This document shows, piece after piece, positions 12,495 to 24,421 of a stretch of DNA of 30,706 nt. The notes beneath the pieces were generated by a model, which saw nothing but the letters and a program-made list of their open reading frames with translations, had not been told where the DNA came from and did not search any database. Source of the DNA: a virus. The DNA lies in the IMG/VR virus record IMGVR_UViG_3300045999_001478, positions 1-30,706 of that record; one strand, 5' to 3'. Both the position numbers and the translations under genes were made by a program. Each line of letters starts with the position of its first letter. The stretch's first letter is position 1.

Positions 12495-13403
12495 ATGGCT
12501 ATTTCACGCGCACAACTACTGAAAGAGCTGCTCCCCGGCCTGAACGCCCTGTTCGGTCTGGAGTATGCCCGCTACGGCGAAGAGCACAAGGAAATCTACG
12601 AATCTGAGACTTCCGAGCGTTCATTCGAAGAAGAAACAAAACTGTCGGGTTTCTCGGCTGCTCCAGTCAAGAACGAAGGCTCTGCGATTGCTTATGACAA
12701 TGCGCAGGAAGCTTGGACTGCTCGATACAACCACGAAACCATTGCTCTGGGTTTCTCGCTGACCGAAGAGGCCATCGAAGACAACCTGTATGACAGCCTG
12801 TCGGCTCGTTATACCAAAGCTCTGGCTCGTGCTATGGCTTACACCAAGCAAGTCAAGGCTGCTAACGTCCTGAACAACGGCTTCTCGTCGTCCTACCCCG
12901 GTGGTGACAACGTGGCTCTGTTCTCGTCTGCGCACCCTCTGGTTTCTGGTGGCACCAACAGCAACATTCCGTCAACTCCGGCTGACTTGAATGAAACTTC
13001 GCTGGAAAACGCTGTGATTCAGATCGCTGCGTGGACTGACGAACGTAGCCTGCTGATTGCTGCTAAGCCTAAAAAGCTGATCGTTCCACCTGCTCTGCAG
13101 TTCGTTGCTACTCGTCTGCTCGAAACCAGCCTCCGTGTTGGTACCAACGACAACGACATCAACGCCCTGAAGAACAACGGTTCGATCCCAGAAGGCTATA
13201 CGATCAACCACTTCCTGACCGACACAAACGCATGGTTCCTGACCACTGACGTTCCAAACGGCATGAAGCACTTTGTTCGTACCCCGATGTCTACGTCCAT
13301 GGACGGTGATTTCGATACTGGTAACGTTCGTTACAAGGCTCGTGAGCGTTACTCGTTCGGCTGGTCTGACCCGCTGGGCATGTACGGCTCGCAAGGCGCG
13401 TAA
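12495..13403 (+). CDS. Major capsid protein (HK97-type fold, Mu gpT-like)
   Basis: A 302-residue protein in the right size range for a major head subunit. Motifs include NHETIALGFSLTEEAIEDNL, YTKALARAMAYTKQVKAAN, NVALFSSAHPL and AAKPKKLIVPPALQFVATRL, which recall Mu gpT-like capsid proteins of the HK97 fold. AAGGAGCTTAAATC gives a strong ribosome binding site, and a strong terminator follows 7 bp after the stop, consistent with abundant expression. No N-terminal delta domain is evident; the separate scaffold gene would supply that role. It is the probable client of the GroES-like protein. Confidence 0.92.
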   Translation: MAISRAQLLKELLPGLNALFGLEYARYGEEHKEIYESETSERSFEEETKLSGFSAAPVKNEGSAIAYDNAQEAWTARYNHETIALGFSLTEEAIEDNLYDSLSARYTKALARAMAYTKQVKAANVLNNGFSSSYPGGDNVALFSSAHPLVSGGTNSNIPSTPADLNETSLENAVIQIAAWTDERSLLIAAKPKKLIVPPALQFVATRLLETSLRVGTNDNDINALKNNGSIPEGYTINHFLTDTNAWFLTTDVPNGMKHFVRTPMSTSMDGDFDTGNVRYKARERYSFGWSDPLGMYGSQGA

Positions 13404-14511: not shown

Positions 14512-15006
14512 ATGATGCAGACTGACGTTAAATCCGCCCGTGCCGCAAACACTGGACTGTTGGTAACGCAAGCGCCCGTACGGTTGAAATCCATTACGGT
14601 GACAAGCGCAACGGTATCCGCGAGGAATGTTGCTATCTGCGACCCAACCGTTAATGAGTCTGGTACGTATTCTCGTACAAACCCTAGTTCCACAATTACC
14701 GTCACGATAGTGAACCACGGCTTTGTTACTGGGCAGCGCGTGTTCTTGAACTTTACGTCTGGCACTGCGCGGGATGGCGTGTATACGATTACGAAGACGG
14801 GCGACGATACGTTTACTTGTGTAGACCCTTTGGTGGTTTCTACGACAAGCGGTAACGTCACGGCATATAGCAGTCTTGCGCTGGAAATCGACACCTTCAA
14901 CACCGTTGGTCTGCCTATCTTGATCCCCGGTGAAGGTATTTACTGCCCTAACGGTATTTTTGTGGGGTGTGGCTCATCGGTAACTGCGACGGTGTTCTAT
15001 GGCTAA
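14512..15006 (+). CDS. Beta-rich structural protein, second of the tandem paralog pair
   Basis: 164 residues, same domain order as the preceding gene: N-terminal xxDVKSxxA, strands, NHGFVTGQRV-FLNFTSGTA, a TSGNVTAY strand, LIPGEGIYC and a final TVFYG. It differs by having more Asn/Arg and by an 8-bp overlap with the next gene. Spacing from the first copy is only 9 bp, with TAGGAATAGGCC as ribosome binding site. The two may form a heteromer or serve as alternating surface units; this is inference. Confidence 0.78.
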   Translation: MMQTDVKSARAANTGLLVTQAPVRLKSITVTSATVSARNVAICDPTVNESGTYSRTNPSSTITVTIVNHGFVTGQRVFLNFTSGTARDGVYTITKTGDDTFTCVDPLVVSTTSGNVTAYSSLALEIDTFNTVGLPILIPGEGIYCPNGIFVGCGSSVTATVFYG

Positions 15007-15253
15007 GACCCCGGCATGGACGAGGAAAGAAGGCAAAAATCCCAAGGGTGGTCTAAACGCCAAAGGGAGAGCCTCCTACAACGCAGCGAATCCGGGGAAG
15101 CCGGGGTTGAAAGCCCCCCAGCCGGAAGGCGGCGCAAGGAAAAAATCATTCTGTTCCAGAATGGAAGGGATGAAAAAGAAGCTCACCTCGTCGAAAACCG
15201 CGAACGACCCGAACAGTCGGATCAATAAAAGTTTGAGGGCTTGGAAATGCTAA
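14999..15253 (+). CDS. Small basic phage protein with KGGLNAKGRASYN motif, 84 aa
   Basis: A very basic protein with MAKTPAWTRKEGKNPKGGLN at the N-terminus, AKGRASYNAANPGKPGLKAP and KKSFCSRMEGMKKKL. I recall small phage proteins with this pattern, sometimes labelled DUF6321, but am not certain of the name. It is mostly disordered, with two Cys. It opens a run of basic proteins that extends to 19449. A nucleic-acid or capsid-interior role is plausible. Confidence 0.75.
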   Translation: MAKTPAWTRKEGKNPKGGLNAKGRASYNAANPGKPGLKAPQPEGGARKKSFCSRMEGMKKKLTSSKTANDPNSRINKSLRAWKC

Positions 15254-15444
15254 AAGATCACATCGAACCAGATTTCATGGACAACATCTCCATTATTGCG
15301 GGGTTGGGCGTCCTACTTTCGTGGTTGCCTACTGTGTTTTCACTTGTGTCTATTGTCTGGTTCAGCATTCGTATCTGGGAGTCCGATACGGTACGTGGGT
15401 TGACCAACCGTATTAAGGGGAAAAAAGATGAAGAGCAAAGCTAA
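15247..15444 (+). CDS. Small membrane protein, holin-like candidate
   Basis: I use the ATG at 15247 (65 residues) instead of the in-frame TTG six bases upstream; GAGGG lies eight bases before. The product has an acidic N-terminus, one long hydrophobic stretch (about residues 14-41, ISIIAGLGVLLSWLPTVFSL and VSIVWF) and SIRIWESDTVRGL before a charged tail. Length and topology are holin-like, but it is 11 kb from the endolysin and inside the basic-protein cluster. It could equally be a small assembly or entry membrane protein. Confidence 0.7.
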   Translation: MLKDHIEPDFMDNISIIAGLGVLLSWLPTVFSLVSIVWFSIRIWESDTVRGLTNRIKGKKDEEQS

Positions 15445-16327
15445 ACCTGCAAAGGGTTCTGCACGCACTAAGCGTTTTGATGTCGGCGGCACTGTTGGTG
15501 CTCTGGCCGGTCTGGGTACTCTTGCTTACCTGATGTCGCGTAAGAAGAAGGGCGCGGATGAAAGCTCTGACGTAGCTGCACGTCGTGCCTCCGGTGCTTA
15601 TCGGGGTGGTGCAGGAACCGATACAACGACGGATACAACGTCGGATACAACGTCGGACAACAAACCATTTGTTAGGCCTCCACCCGGTGTAATTTTTGAG
15701 GAAGACCGTGCTAAAGAAAAAGACAGAATGGATTCGGCGGTTGAAACTCATCGCCGGATAACTAGCGGCGGAGGTGGCGGCAATGCTCCCGTAGTTAAAA
15801 AGAAACCTGTAATCAAAAACGTAGTCAAAAAAGCCGCTGATGGTTCCGCATCCACAACAAACCAAGGATCAAGCACAAATACAGGCGTGGATGCTGGTAT
15901 TGCAGCAGGTAATAAAGAACGCGGACCAGACAAGACTCTAGCAGGGCAAGGCGGATACCAACCTCCTACGGAACAGCACGCCGCAGAAGTTACTTCAATT
16001 ATGAAGGACGTTAAAGACCCGAACAAAGGGAAGTATGCGGGCAAGGGGAAAAGGGCCGTTTCTAAAGCCGGAAAGCTAGCCACAAATGCGTATAAGGATT
16101 CTTCTGGCGTTTTATACGACGTAGAAGGCAACCCTGTTAGACAAGCAACACGAAAAGGCCGAGATGCTCGTCCGGGTAAAAAAGCGGGTGGCGCAGTCAA
16201 GAAGTACGCTAATGGTGGCTCGGTAATGGCGTCCAAGATGGGTTCGGTTAAAACTGCCAAGCCCTCTATGCGTTCTGCTTCATCCCGTGCTGACGGTATC
16301 GCTATTCGCGGAAAGACAAGGGCTTAA
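15428..16327 (+). CDS. Basic low-complexity protein with C-terminal RADGIAIRGKTRA tag
   Basis: 299 residues, rich in Lys, Gly, Ala, Thr and Ser. An N-terminal FDVGGTVGALAGLGTLAYLM stretch could be a membrane or hydrophobic anchor. A Thr/Asp repeat follows, then a long disordered basic middle part and KKYANGGSVMASKMGSVKTA leading into SRADGIAIRGKTRA at the very end. The same ending occurs in three later gene products of this cluster. This length is much greater than the others. It may be a packaged DNA-binding or ejected protein; nothing enzymatic is visible. Confidence 0.72.
   Translation: MKSKAKPAKGSARTKRFDVGGTVGALAGLGTLAYLMSRKKKGADESSDVAARRASGAYRGGAGTDTTTDTTSDTTSDNKPFVRPPPGVIFEEDRAKEKDRMDSAVETHRRITSGGGGGNAPVVKKKPVIKNVVKKAADGSASTTNQGSSTNTGVDAGIAAGNKERGPDKTLAGQGGYQPPTEQHAAEVTSIMKDVKDPNKGKYAGKGKRAVSKAGKLATNAYKDSSGVLYDVEGNPVRQATRKGRDARPGKKAGGAVKKYANGGSVMASKMGSVKTAKPSMRSASSRADGIAIRGKTRA
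15620..15655 (+). repeat. Three 12-bp tandem repeats inside the basic protein gene
   Basis: GATACAACGACG followed by two GATACAACGTCG. They encode DTTT/DTTS units. Because 12 is a multiple of three, copy changes would keep the reading frame. Confidence 0.8.
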
Positions 16328-16329
16328 TC

Positions 16330-16560
16330 ATGGCTGATAAATCAATCGGACGCCGCATGTACGAGAACGTCATGGGCACACCTGAGCAGAACGCTGAGGC
16401 TGAAAAACGTATGGCGGAGCAGGATAAGAAAAATCCTGATACCGCACAGGCCAAGCTAAACAAGGTGGTAAAGACCGTCACTGGTAAGAAAAAGGGCGGC
16501 TACGTTAAAGCGGCTGATGGCTGCGCTCAGCGTGGTAAGACGAAGGGCAGGATGGTGTAA
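16330..16560 (+). CDS. Small basic protein with C-terminal ADGCAQRGKTKG tag, 76 aa
   Basis: MADKSIGRRMYENVMGTPEQ opens a charged helical part, followed by Lys-rich VVKTVTGKKKGGYVKAADGC and AQRGKTKGRMV at the end. The ending matches the shared tag. The stop and next start overlap as TAATG, so it is coupled to the following gene. A disordered, strongly basic protein; DNA or capsid binding likely. Confidence 0.75.
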   Translation: MADKSIGRRMYENVMGTPEQNAEAEKRMAEQDKKNPDTAQAKLNKVVKTVTGKKKGGYVKAADGCAQRGKTKGRMV

Positions 16561-16970
16561 TGCCTGCCAAGTCAGCAAAGCAGGAAAAGTTCATGCAAGC
16601 TGTGGCGAACAATCCAAAGTTTGCAAAAAAGGTTGGCGTTCCAACAAGCGTAGGTAAAGAGTTCACTAAATCAGGAGGCGGTATGGCTAACACATCACGT
16701 ATGAATCGTTTGGAAGAACTTGGTCGCGTAAATGCTGAAAAGGCATCGTCGGCCAAAGGCAAAAAGAATTTGATGGCAGAAAAGAAACGCATCGTCGGCG
16801 AACTGAAAACAGGCGCTATGAAAAAAATGGCTGCTGGCGGCATGACTAAGATGGGCGCGGTTAAGACTGCTGCTCCTAGCCGTGATGGCGTTGCTGTCAA
16901 AGGCAAGACCAAAGGCAAGCAGATCGTCATGGCTGGCAACAAAGGTATGAAGCGCGGCGGAGCCTGCTAA
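16560..16970 (+). CDS. Basic protein with MPAKSAKQ N-terminus and internal RDGVAVKGKTKG tag, 136 aa
   Basis: The N-terminal MPAKSAKQEKFMQAVANNPK, then FAKKVGVPTSVGKEFTKSGG, resembles small phage and bacterial proteins with a MPAKSKAQ start (DUF3008-like, uncertain). The C-terminal half has KKMAAGGMTKMGAVKTAAPS followed by RDGVAVKGKTKGKQ and a further tail ending GMKRGGAC. It is related to the end of the 15428-16327 product (KMGxVKTAxPS). An internal AGGAGG (16673-16678) stands four bases before an in-frame ATG at 16683, so a shorter 95-residue product is possible. Confidence 0.75.
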   Translation: MPAKSAKQEKFMQAVANNPKFAKKVGVPTSVGKEFTKSGGGMANTSRMNRLEELGRVNAEKASSAKGKKNLMAEKKRIVGELKTGAMKKMAAGGMTKMGAVKTAAPSRDGVAVKGKTKGKQIVMAGNKGMKRGGAC

Positions 16971-17245
16971 TGATGGCCTCGCGTGGCATGGGTGACATTA
17001 ACCCTTCCAAGATGCCGAAGCCTAAGAAAAAGGCTCGCCGGGATGACACCGACTTTACGCAGTACAAAGAAGGTGGGAAGGTCAACGCTGCTGGTAATTA
17101 CACCAAGCCAGAACTTCGTAAGAAGATCGTAAGCCAAGTAAAGTCCGCAGCCACCCATGGCACAGGCGCAGGTCAGTGGTCAGCCCGCAAAGCACAGCTT
17201 GTGGCGAAGAAGTACAAGGCAGCAGGTGGGGGCTACCGTGACTGA
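16970..17245 (+). CDS. Small basic protein with MASRGMGDI / GQWSARKAQL motifs, 91 aa
   Basis: Motifs are MASRGMGDINPSKMPKPKKK, FTQYKEGGKVNAAGNYTKPE, and the C-terminal AGQWSARKAQLVAKKYKAAG. The GQWSARKAQL block recurs in phage and plasmid proteins sometimes labelled DUF5872; I recall this without being sure. A TAATG-type junction joins it to the previous gene. No tag of the RGKT kind is present, but it shares the KxGG and high Lys content of the cluster. Function unknown; DNA binding is plausible. Confidence 0.75.
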   Translation: MMASRGMGDINPSKMPKPKKKARRDDTDFTQYKEGGKVNAAGNYTKPELRKKIVSQVKSAATHGTGAGQWSARKAQLVAKKYKAAGGGYRD

Positions 17246-17588
17246 TACGGCTAGAGAGCGAGAGATACAAAGGATTTTAGCTAGTGATCCTGACTATGCT
17301 CGTGACACGGACATAACTAAACGTGCTGAGCGCGTGGAAAAAATGTCTAAGCTTACAGCCGATGATGTTGTGAAAGAAAAGGATATATCGAAAGATGACC
17401 GCCGACTTGCTAAGTCTTTTATAAAAAGCGCACGGGGTGCTGGCGGTGGCGGCGGAATGATGCCTGATCTAGAAGGGCTAAAGGGAAGAAAACCTAAGCT
17501 GTACAAAAAAGGCGGTGCAGTTAAATCAGCTTCCGCCCGTGCAGACGGAATAGCCCAACGCGGTAAGACGCGGGGTATGATGCGATGA
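17238..17588 (+). CDS. Basic protein with C-terminal RADGIAQRGKTRG tag, 116 aa (GTG start)
   Basis: I choose the GTG at 17238 (VTDTAREREIQRILASDPDY); GGTGGGGG lies just upstream and it overlaps the preceding stop by 8 bp. A longer in-frame reading starts inside the preceding gene and is not needed. The N-terminal half is helical and charged; a Gly-rich linker (GAGGGGGMM) leads to KLYKKGGAVKSASARADGIA and QRGKTRGMMR. This is the clearest copy of the shared tag. Confidence 0.75.
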   Translation: MTDTAREREIQRILASDPDYARDTDITKRAERVEKMSKLTADDVVKEKDISKDDRRLAKSFIKSARGAGGGGGMMPDLEGLKGRKPKLYKKGGAVKSASARADGIAQRGKTRGMMR

Positions 17589-17818
17589 AAGCGCCACAGC
17601 AAAGCTTGAAAGCTTGGGGGGACCAGAAATGGCGAACCAAAAGCGGAAAGCCATCGTCAAAGACCGGCGAGAGGTATCTCCCGGAAAAGGCGATCAAGGC
17701 GTTAAGCCCAGCCGAGTATGCAGCCACAACGAAGGCAAAGCGGGCAGGGAAAGCAAAAGGTAAGCAGTTCGTTGCACAGCCCAAGGGCATAGCTAAGAAA
17801 ACGGCGGGGTATAGATAA
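17585..17818 (+). CDS. Small basic protein with KWRTKSGKPSSKTGERYLP motif, 77 aa
   Basis: MKAPQQSLKAWGDQKWRTKS, then GKPSSKTGERYLPEKAIKAL, then YAATTKAKRAGKAKGKQFVA. I recall similar small proteins in phage genomes, without a known function. It shares ATGA with the gene before and TAATG with the adaptor gene after it. Very basic and probably partly disordered. Confidence 0.78.
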   Translation: MKAPQQSLKAWGDQKWRTKSGKPSSKTGERYLPEKAIKALSPAEYAATTKAKRAGKAKGKQFVAQPKGIAKKTAGYR

Positions 17819-18564
17819 TGGCCTATTCAACCAACACAACTGCGTTTAACCCCGACCTCAACGAGATATTCGAAGAGGCGTTTGAGCGTTGTGGCTTGGA
17901 ACTTCGCACGGGGTATGACTTCCGTACGGCGCGGCGCAGTCTGAACTTCCTGATGGGTGAGTGGGCGAACCGGGGCATTAACCTGTGGACCATCGAGCAG
18001 GGCTCTATTAATCTGGCACAGGGGGTAACGACCTATGATCTACCTGATGATACCGTTGATCTTATTGAACATGTTATTCGCACTGATTCCGGACAGGGTC
18101 CTAACCAGACTGATCTGAACATCACCCGTATCAGCGTCTCCACCTATTCGACTATCCCTAATAAGCTGGCTCAGGGGCGTCCGATTCAGGTTTGGATTGA
18201 CCGCCAGTCGGGGCAAAACGTGGGTTCAAATTTACCGGCTGCTGCGAAGCACCCACAGATTAACGTCTGGCCTGCGCCCGATCAAGGCACCACTTTGCAG
18301 CCGTACTACGTGTTCTATTACTGGAGACTGAAGCGCATCTATGACGCCGGTACCGGTACAAACATTATCGATATTCCGTTCCGCTTCCAGAACTGCATGG
18401 TGGCGGGACTTGCTTATATGTTGGCCGTGAAGAAGCCCGAGGTATCTGCGGATCGTGTGATGGCGCTGAAGATGATGTATGACGAGGCGTGGGAGTTGGC
18501 TGCATCGGAAGACCGCGAGAAGGCTGCGGATCGCTTGGTTCCACGTGAGTTCTTTATCGCTTAA
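17818..18564 (+). CDS. Head-tail adaptor-like protein (P22 gp4 / tail tubular A class)
   Basis: 248 residues. It has EIFEEAFERCGLELRTGYDF and RTARRSLNFLMGEWANRGIN (alpha-helical adaptor-like N-terminus), GVTTYDLPDDTVDLIEHVIR (a strand-turn-strand often seen in such proteins), HPQINVWPAPDQG and a C-terminal helix. This arrangement resembles proteins that bind below the portal ring to close the head and attach the tail. A second protein with similar architecture is at 19458. I name a class instead of a specific ortholog. Confidence 0.8.
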   Translation: MAYSTNTTAFNPDLNEIFEEAFERCGLELRTGYDFRTARRSLNFLMGEWANRGINLWTIEQGSINLAQGVTTYDLPDDTVDLIEHVIRTDSGQGPNQTDLNITRISVSTYSTIPNKLAQGRPIQVWIDRQSGQNVGSNLPAAAKHPQINVWPAPDQGTTLQPYYVFYYWRLKRIYDAGTGTNIIDIPFRFQNCMVAGLAYMLAVKKPEVSADRVMALKMMYDEAWELAASEDREKAADRLVPREFFIA

Positions 18565-18982: not shown

Positions 18983-19165
18983 ATGAAACACGAAGACATC
19001 AAGAAGGACAAACCGTTTATGGAGAAGATTGCTAAGAAAGCAGTCAAGGGCCATGAGCAGCGTATGCACGGTGCCAAGAAGATGGCCAAGGGCGGCGTGA
19101 CTTCTGAGCAGATGAAAGCCATGGGTCGCAATCTGGCTCGTGCTGCAAACCAGAAATCGGGCTAA
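18983..19165 (+). CDS. Small basic protein MKHEDIKKDKP..., 60 aa
   Basis: MKHEDIKKDKPFMEKIAKKA, VKGHEQRMHGAKKMAKGGVT, SEQMKAMGRNLARAANQKSG: a helical Lys-rich protein with a MAKGG turn like those of the upstream basic cluster. TAGGAGTTGAT gives a good ribosome binding site. I recall similar proteins in phages with this gene order, without function. Confidence 0.75.
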   Translation: MKHEDIKKDKPFMEKIAKKAVKGHEQRMHGAKKMAKGGVTSEQMKAMGRNLARAANQKSG

Positions 19166-19167
19166 TC

Positions 19168-19449
19168 ATGGCCAAATACTCACAAAAGCAGGGTGGCAAA
19201 GAAGTAGGCCAAGCTGCTGTTTATGCGGAGCCACACACCATGGACGGTAAAAAAGTGAACGTTAAAGAAGCTATCAGCATAGCTAAAGACCCTAATACAC
19301 TTTCAGCACGTGAAGTTAAACCCGGTAAACCGGCTATGCGCGTGTCAGCGGGCGACCCTAATGCTGACGATGTAAAGACTACCGGCATCAAGATGCGTGG
19401 CGCTGGCGCTGCTACTAAAGGCTTTATGTGCCGTGGCCCTATGGCTTGA
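19168..19449 (+). CDS. Small protein with C-terminal GIKMRGAGAATKGFMCRGPMA, 93 aa
   Basis: The N-terminus is basic (MAKYSQKQGGKEVGQAAVYA), the middle charged, and the end TTGIKMRGAGAATKGFMCRG followed by PMA. This Gly/Met/Arg ending is a second type of short C-terminal signature in the cluster, distinct from the RGKT tag but equally basic. It is probably co-translated with its neighbours. No enzyme motif. Confidence 0.75.
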   Translation: MAKYSQKQGGKEVGQAAVYAEPHTMDGKKVNVKEAISIAKDPNTLSAREVKPGKPAMRVSAGDPNADDVKTTGIKMRGAGAATKGFMCRGPMA

Positions 19450-23851: not shown

Positions 23852-24421
23852 ATGAACAGATTACGCACTATATCAAGCACGCTCCCTTTGGATTTTATAA
23901 GGGACGTAAAAAACTTTGTTCGTACACAAAGAGTGGTTCGAACCAACCATACTACTTGGGGGGAACCTGCTTTACCTGCGGACGTAGCGAATATTATTGG
24001 TTTTAGTGGCCCAATGTATATGGTTGAGTTAGTGGACGCCTTAAAAGAACAAGCTATGAAACACATGGCGGTTCATTTTACAGATATTAATCTTTTAGAC
24101 TACGAAGCGGACATAACCTATGTTACAGGTGGCCGTTATAGTTTTGCTCCGTGGCATAACGATGTCATATATGAACGGTCTATAACTGTCTATTTAAACG
24201 AGGAGTGGGATCGTAATTGGGGTGGATGTTATTTATATGATGAAGACAACGGAGAAGGTGTAAGAGCCATTTATCCGGAGTTTAATAAAGCAATAGATAT
24301 TACTCCGCCGTTGTTGCATGCAACTGCAATGCCCAACATTCAAGCGCCCCTTCGCTTCTCGTTGCAGTACCATATTTTTAAAAAAGGTTTAAGCACAAAC
24401 CCATTTGACTACAAAGGATAA
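23852..24421 (+). CDS. 2-oxoglutarate/Fe(II)-dependent oxygenase (prolyl 4-hydroxylase-like)
   Basis: 189 residues. The jelly-roll signature is complete: WHNDVIYERSITVYLNEEWD with iron ligands H102 and D104, GGCYLYDED, then LLHATAMPN with distal H156, and PLRFSLQYH with R168 for 2-oxoglutarate. The N-terminal third is helical and Lys-rich. Such enzymes hydroxylate protein side chains or other small targets. It sits between two fibre genes with 6-bp spacings, so a fibre or host-surface substrate is suggested but unproven. AT-rich composition compared with the genes around it hints at separate origin. Confidence 0.9.
   Translation: MNRLRTISSTLPLDFIRDVKNFVRTQRVVRTNHTTWGEPALPADVANIIGFSGPMYMVELVDALKEQAMKHMAVHFTDINLLDYEADITYVTGGRYSFAPWHNDVIYERSITVYLNEEWDRNWGGCYLYDEDNGEGVRAIYPEFNKAIDITPPLLHATAMPNIQAPLRFSLQYHIFKKGLSTNPFDYKG

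Follow-up and report, generated by a model that had tools for sequence, protein, structure and literature searches.

Unlike basic proteins between the head and adaptor genes of an aquatic phage lineage share a short, mainly C-terminal peptide, a possible docking signal

Why should neighbouring phage genes whose products are otherwise unlike carry the same short peptide at or near their ends? The question is raised by a 30.7-kb viral sequence (the window below, i.e. the whole stretch of 30,706 nucleotides that was analysed). The window encodes a terminase (phrog_38), a portal (phrog_1216), a GroES-like protein, a probable scaffold (judged by position and by relatives), tail proteins and lysis genes. 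Between the genes for the major head protein and the head-tail adaptor lies a run of small genes, four of which carry the peptide, here called the tag. The relevant features are:

12495..13403, + strand: major head protein, HK97-type (phrog_371), the upstream anchor gene
14999..15253, + strand: DUF6321 protein, 84 aa, charge +17, without tag
15428..16327, + strand: tagged protein, 299 aa, charge +30, with an N-terminal Gly/Ala-rich hydrophobic stretch, VGGTVGALAGLGTLAYLMS
16286..16324, + strand: tag of protein 15428, RADGIAIRGKTRA, in the short form ending RGKTRA-stop
16330..16560, + strand: tagged protein, 76 aa, charge +9
16513..16557, + strand: tag of protein 16330, ADGCAQRGKTKGRMV, canonical form, ending 4 residues after the motif
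16560..16970, + strand: tagged protein, 136 aa, charge +23, with a C-terminal Cys
16878..16916, + strand: tag of protein 16560, SRDGVAVKGKTKG, internal form, 17 residues before the C-terminus
16970..17245, + strand: basic KxGG protein (phrog_17747), without tag
17157..17588, + strand: open reading frame of protein 17238, opening at the ATG at 17157
17238..17588, + strand: tagged protein, 116 aa, charge +11, read from an in-frame GTG
17538..17585, + strand: tag of protein 17238, RADGIAQRGKTRGMMR, canonical form
17585..17818, + strand: basic protein (phrog_14910), without tag
17818..18564, + strand: head-tail adaptor, SU10-type (PF24175), the downstream anchor gene
18983..19165, + strand: basic protein without tag, C-terminus MKAMGRNLARAANQKSG
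19168..19449, + strand: basic protein without tag

Two further genes deserve mention. A small open reading frame at 15241-15444, between the DUF6321 gene and the first tagged gene, encodes a hydrophobic segment that is probably membrane-spanning; family matching gave no match. A 2OG-Fe(II) oxygenase-like gene lies amid the tail genes at 23852-24421, with matches below the Pfam cut-off.

An initial annotation, made from the letters of the window, had described a common signature on four clustered basic proteins between capsid and adaptor genes, and this description holds. The motif DG[ICV]Ax[RK]GKT[RK] is present in four open reading frames, as SRADGIAIRGKTRA-stop (15428-16327), ADGCAQRGKTKGRMV-stop (16330-16560), SRDGVAVKGKTKG followed by 17 aa (16560-16970) and ARADGIAQRGKTRGMMR-stop (ORF 17157-17588), and the capsid gene at 12495 (phrog_371) and the adaptor gene at 17818 (PF24175) flank the cluster. 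Chance does not produce such a set: 2000 shuffles of the window's 240 open reading frames gave 0 matches, against the four observed. The bodies do differ: blastp between them gives no similarity with E below 0.15. Each of the four has a strong positive charge (+9 to +30). The neighbours at 16970, 18983 and 19168, which had been likened to them, are basic as well, as are those at 14999 and 17585. One part of the description needs to be narrowed. The KxGG stretch said to precede the tag is clear in two of the tagged proteins (KKGGYVKAADG and KKGGAVKSASARADG); in 15428 (KKAGGAVKKYANGG) it is farther from the tag on the upstream side, and in 16560 (MAAGGMTKMGAVKTAAPS) the match is looser.

Other phages have the tag too. 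In IMG/VR virus contigs at least 120 stretches match a degenerate DNA pattern for it, versus 10 stretches for a control with the same codons in reverse order. The DNA scan demanded RGKT, so that conservation of these four letters is partly by construction. When a position-specific score built from the tags was used without this demand (0 reversed proteins above 12 bits among 16,761), the A was sometimes C or V, the D sometimes N or G, and the K of GKT sometimes H, R, F or L. Among the matches listed, 116 of 120 loci hold homologues of the window's structural genes, and the remaining four are 1.1-3.2 kb in length. The tag-bearing phages appear to form a family that is widespread in fresh water and in other aquatic habitats.

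The same pattern has 28 matches in 84,980 bacterial and archaeal genomes (257 Gb). Four of these have tag-like ends (L137, L145, L148 and L160); all are in MAG-type or environmental assemblies, and they are probably virus fragments. The other 24 do not end as tags, and the idea of a bacterial or plasmid motif was rejected. A tblastn search of phages and plasmids with the 28-aa tag returned nothing at the limits used; the query is too short for this purpose, since the Planktothrix phage Pag-Yong1 has a variant of the tag. Full-text literature searches found no paper describing RGKTRG as a phage peptide, and likewise none for PHIKZ165.1, Pag-Yong1 or DUF6321; nor did virion proteomics for any tagged protein come to light.

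Within the phage genomes the tag keeps to one place. In every one of 16 records of 40-87 kb the tags are gathered in a single cluster that spans no more than about 2 kb, and there are one to five tagged proteins per genome. Loci were also sampled blind to the tag, by the head protein alone, and 32 of these have both head protein and adaptor; the sample leans to close relatives (head proteins 85-93% identical) and includes the window itself. Scored for the tag, 30 of the 32 capsid-adaptor spans hold at least one, and the strict motif is found between head protein and adaptor in 26. The tag therefore tracks with gene order, as the initial annotation had asked to be checked. In six of the 32 loci a further tag stands at the N-terminus of a protein of 61-64 aa, encoded downstream of the adaptor; beyond the span and this N-terminal form, no tag was found elsewhere in these loci. 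N-terminal copies (MAYTRSADGIAKKGKTEGKNLGDSGP...) on proteins of about 62 aa are seen in 18 loci (L044:5539-5724, L226:11926-12114, L116:5948-6133 and 15 further loci), and the gene is downstream of the adaptor wherever both genes were located. The C-termini of these relatives' proteins resemble that of the window's 18983 protein, MKAMGRNLARAANQKSG. A tag scattered widely over unrelated proteins and not linked to phage heads had been named as evidence that would speak against a head signal; the findings contradict this, the tag being slot-bound and nearly absent from cellular genomes. The tag is confined mainly to one phage lineage and one genomic slot.

The phrog_17747 protein (16970-17245 in the window) is kept in 103 of the 120 tagged loci among the matches listed. 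Its C-terminal module, GQWSARKAQLVAKKYKAAGGGY, is common to HMO-2011-type phages of Puniceispirillum, Roseobacter, Pelagibacter and Methylophilales.

The anatomy of the tag was followed in 300 non-redundant tagged open reading frames among the matches listed. Most stop exactly four residues after the motif (188 of 300), 13 close with RGKTRA or RGKTKA, and in 96 the motif is followed by nine or more residues, many of these last open reading frames being members of the MPxxS family to which 16560 belongs. The canonical end approximates to GG-K/S-V-S-S-A-S-K/S-R-A-D-G-[I/C]-A-Q-R-G-K-T-[R/K]-G-[R/K]-M-[V/C]-stop. At the invariant residues every synonymous codon is in use, and because these codons vary freely at fixed residues, it is the peptide that is under selection. 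Tags inside one genome are more alike (0.729) than shuffled ones (0.671; 0 of 2000), with a synonymous identity of 0.465 within genomes vs 0.426 between them. Such likeness is expected if each set fits its own partner, and it could partly stem from duplication or shared ancestry. The internal and N-terminal copies imply that a free C-terminus is not required, and a degron, which needs one, was rejected for this reason.

The letters GxxxxGKT also fit the Walker A P-loop, GxxxxGK[ST], yet this identity was rejected as well. Relatives have H, R, F or L in place of the Lys, and Pag-Yong1 has GRT; the motif ends one to four residues before the stop in 201 of 300 open reading frames, which leaves no following helix; and no secondary structure is predicted around the motif in a model of 16560, where a strand-loop-helix would be called for.

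A last-residue Cys occurs in 70 of the 96 open reading frames with an internal tag and in 45 of the 188 canonical ones, and DUF6321 proteins have it also; among neighbouring structural proteins Cys does not rank in the top eight final residues. In the window it is found at 14999-15253 and 16560-16970, and could be disulfide or metal related.

The bodies are far more varied than the tag. Single-linkage clustering places them in 91 clusters, a figure to be read as about 90, since shared Lys/Gly composition has probably swollen one cluster, of 154, and some open reading frames are drawn with starts too far upstream. The tag is modular across these unlike bodies. The DUF6321 body, without tag in the window, carries one in L032, L068, L096, L101 and L192. 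The MPxxS domain is found as a stand-alone open reading frame of 49-50 aa in L034, L042 and L039, and in the first two of these the tag is on the open reading frame next to it. In one instance, L040:1154-1540, an MPxxS N-terminal domain is followed by a C-terminus like that of DUF6321, as though either the tag or DUF6321 could serve as the end.

Net charge is positive in every tagged open reading frame (median +13). With the tag and the 14 preceding residues removed, the bodies have a median of +5.1 per 100 aa vs -1.4 in neighbouring structural proteins, and an ILVFWY fraction of 0.15 vs 0.29. The bodies are basic and poor in hydrophobic residues, and the window's scaffold, portal and head protein are acidic. 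The Gly/Ala-rich hydrophobic N-terminal stretch seen in 15428 occurs in a minority of tagged open reading frames, and transmembrane cargo was discarded as a common theme, as a 19-residue hydropathy of at least 1.6 is reached in just 2 of 300.

What, then, might the tag do? The initial annotation had suggested a targeting signal, for example for the procapsid, or a peptide for binding a shared partner. Its reading is supported in part, as regards conserved tails on differing bodies and their link with the gene order. The reading we favour, and to which we give a little less than an even chance, is that it is a sorting or docking peptide that brings varied basic proteins to a common partner, so that they end in the virion. 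The peptide would be short, mostly disordered and usually C-terminal, and would recruit variable small basic proteins to one partner during head assembly. This partner would most likely be the acidic scaffold, or else the inner face of the portal or capsid, and the tagged proteins might then be packaged along with the DNA, as internal cargo or cargo associated with the neck. In this picture the bodies would be changing cargo and the tag their shared address. Whether the proteins lie in the virion, which partner they meet, whether they enter the head, and whether they are ejected or condense DNA are matters of inference here.

The positive charge raises the question of whether a protein partner is needed at all. 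The tag could be a nucleic-acid anchor. As a basic and disordered tail it would bind packaged or replicating DNA and help to condense it. All tagged open reading frames are positive (median +13), the tag is rich in R, K and G, and the bodies are basic without it. However, charge is all that a non-specific tail needs, whereas the tag has a fixed DGxAxxGKT core that includes an Asp and stops at an exact position, and basic proteins without tag adjoin the tagged ones. We consider such an anchor unlikely, even if it is the best placed of the alternatives.

A docking peptide might also act from outside the head. The tagged proteins would then be neck/tail joining or head-completion factors, the tag docking on portal or adaptor from the exterior; their genes are directly upstream of the adaptor, and the N-terminal copies are directly downstream. 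DUF6321 is of interest here. The window open reading frame at 14999-15253 belongs to this family (PF19846; 70.8 bits vs a Pfam gathering cut-off of 28.5). DUF6321 proteins are strongly basic, end in Cys, occupy the same slot as the tagged proteins and can carry the tag at their end; they differ from the tag in being a longer conserved domain that is spread over cyanophages and pelagiphages. The domain is found as a separate gene or as the C-terminal module of larger phage proteins. In the T7-like cyanophage P-SCSP1a of Prochlorococcus the gene (L251:3947-4201) occupies a slot equivalent to that of the window, with the major capsid gene on one side and the gp11 tail tube gene on the other, and this position favours neck factors. 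The papers on P-SCSP1u and P-SSP7 gave no proteomic data for the product of the DUF6321 gene. In cyanomyoviruses DUF6321 forms the C-terminal module of the T4-GC119 protein, which is encoded near terminase genes (L252:2126-4252, L253:2535-3740 and L254:10537-12024).

Against neck factors, one to five differently built, hydrophobic-poor proteins per genome would be unusual for neck parts, and there are related phages with the same adaptor type but without tagged proteins. HTVC027P and 023Pt_psg01 have the slot with neither tag nor basic cluster; in DSL-LC04, a lake metagenome assembly, basic KxGG proteins are present and the tag is absent. The head proteins of these three are 61-65% identical to that of the window (61-72% when Pag-Yong1 is included), and such untagged near relatives imply that the tag is not essential to this virion type. 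A neck role seems rather improbable, more so than a DNA anchor.

Slightly more doubtful again is a role in the infected cell, in which the tag would localise the proteins to a host or phage complex. The late-gene location is compatible with it, though it suggests timing only, and each long record has one tag cluster, which in the capsid-sampled loci is inside the structural block. In addition, the N-terminal domain of 16560 is common to a virion protein family verified by mass spectrometry, the one link of a tagged protein to virions and an indirect one. The AF2 model of 16560 is of low confidence (pLDDT 60.8); it predicts a confident three-helix domain at residues 1-37, while the rest is low-confidence and basic, with no structure around the tag (pLDDT about 50). 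No solved structure was found by sequence for 16560, the head protein or DUF6321. The N-terminal domain matches phrog_16759, PHIKZ165.1 and GAP32_317/CBB_322-type proteins, whose first 35-39 residues are like its own, and also phrog_22033 (E=5e-6). We equate the latter with the family of GAP32_317 and its CBB homologue, as the domain falls, by a weak tblastn match (E=2-3), at the start of those genes. Judging by the numbering, FDG95_gp322 of the RefSeq record would be the CBB_322 of the published work, which was detected in virions by mass spectrometry with 30 peptides (PMC5259590). The match to phrog_16759, PHIKZ165.1, GAP32_317 and CBB_322 is limited to the N-terminus of 16560 and stops short of the tag.

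It is very improbable that a prohead protease removes the tag, which would then be a processing site or propeptide like the capsid targeting sequence (CTS) of T4. T4 and giant phages do cleave short conserved terminal peptides from internal proteins, and GG sequences lie ahead of the tag; but the spacing from GG to tag varies, the terminal residues past the motif are constrained, and family matching in the head block recognised no stand-alone protease, although a divergent one may escape such matching. That the tag has no function and was spread as a relic from one gene end to another by recombination is scarcely credible, since its residues are fixed while synonymous codons are scrambled and it is kept on many body clusters across diverged contigs, even if the tags of one genome resemble each other.

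Two further systems can be set beside a docking peptide. One is Pag-Yong1, a named phage with a recorded host source. Its protein UMO75986.1 ends ...GGMIGRDGCAKRGRTKGRFI and is encoded in a like slot, between the minor capsid and portal-adaptor genes; it differs in having GRT for GKT, and it is the only tagged protein of that phage.

The other is the CTS of T4. The T4 internal proteins have only this sequence in common (PMC3012670), a short propeptide that gp21 cleaves from the N-terminus (PMC7411985). As with the tag, one short conserved sequence is found on varied bodies (IPI, IPII, IPIII and Alt; PMC3012670, PMC7411985), and the window has one sequence on several unlike proteins. The position differs: the CTS is N-terminal, and the tag is C-terminal or near C-terminal in nearly all cases, sometimes internal or N-terminal. 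Packaging by the CTS has been demonstrated in T4; packaging by the tag is a prediction from sequence. If it is a loading signal, a simple sequence search would predict the internal cargo of many uncultured aquatic phages, there would be a new handle on protein packaging in phages, and a phage lineage could swap its accessory virion proteins while one address is kept. It is possible, though we hold this more tentatively than docking itself, that in a whole lineage of abundant aquatic phages the tag is a portable, uncleaved, mainly C-terminal loading code, new cargo genes being admitted to the virion just by acquiring it, and that it is an independently evolved counterpart of the T4 sequence. 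By analogy, the best explanation appears to be that the tag works like the T4 CTS without being homologous to it.
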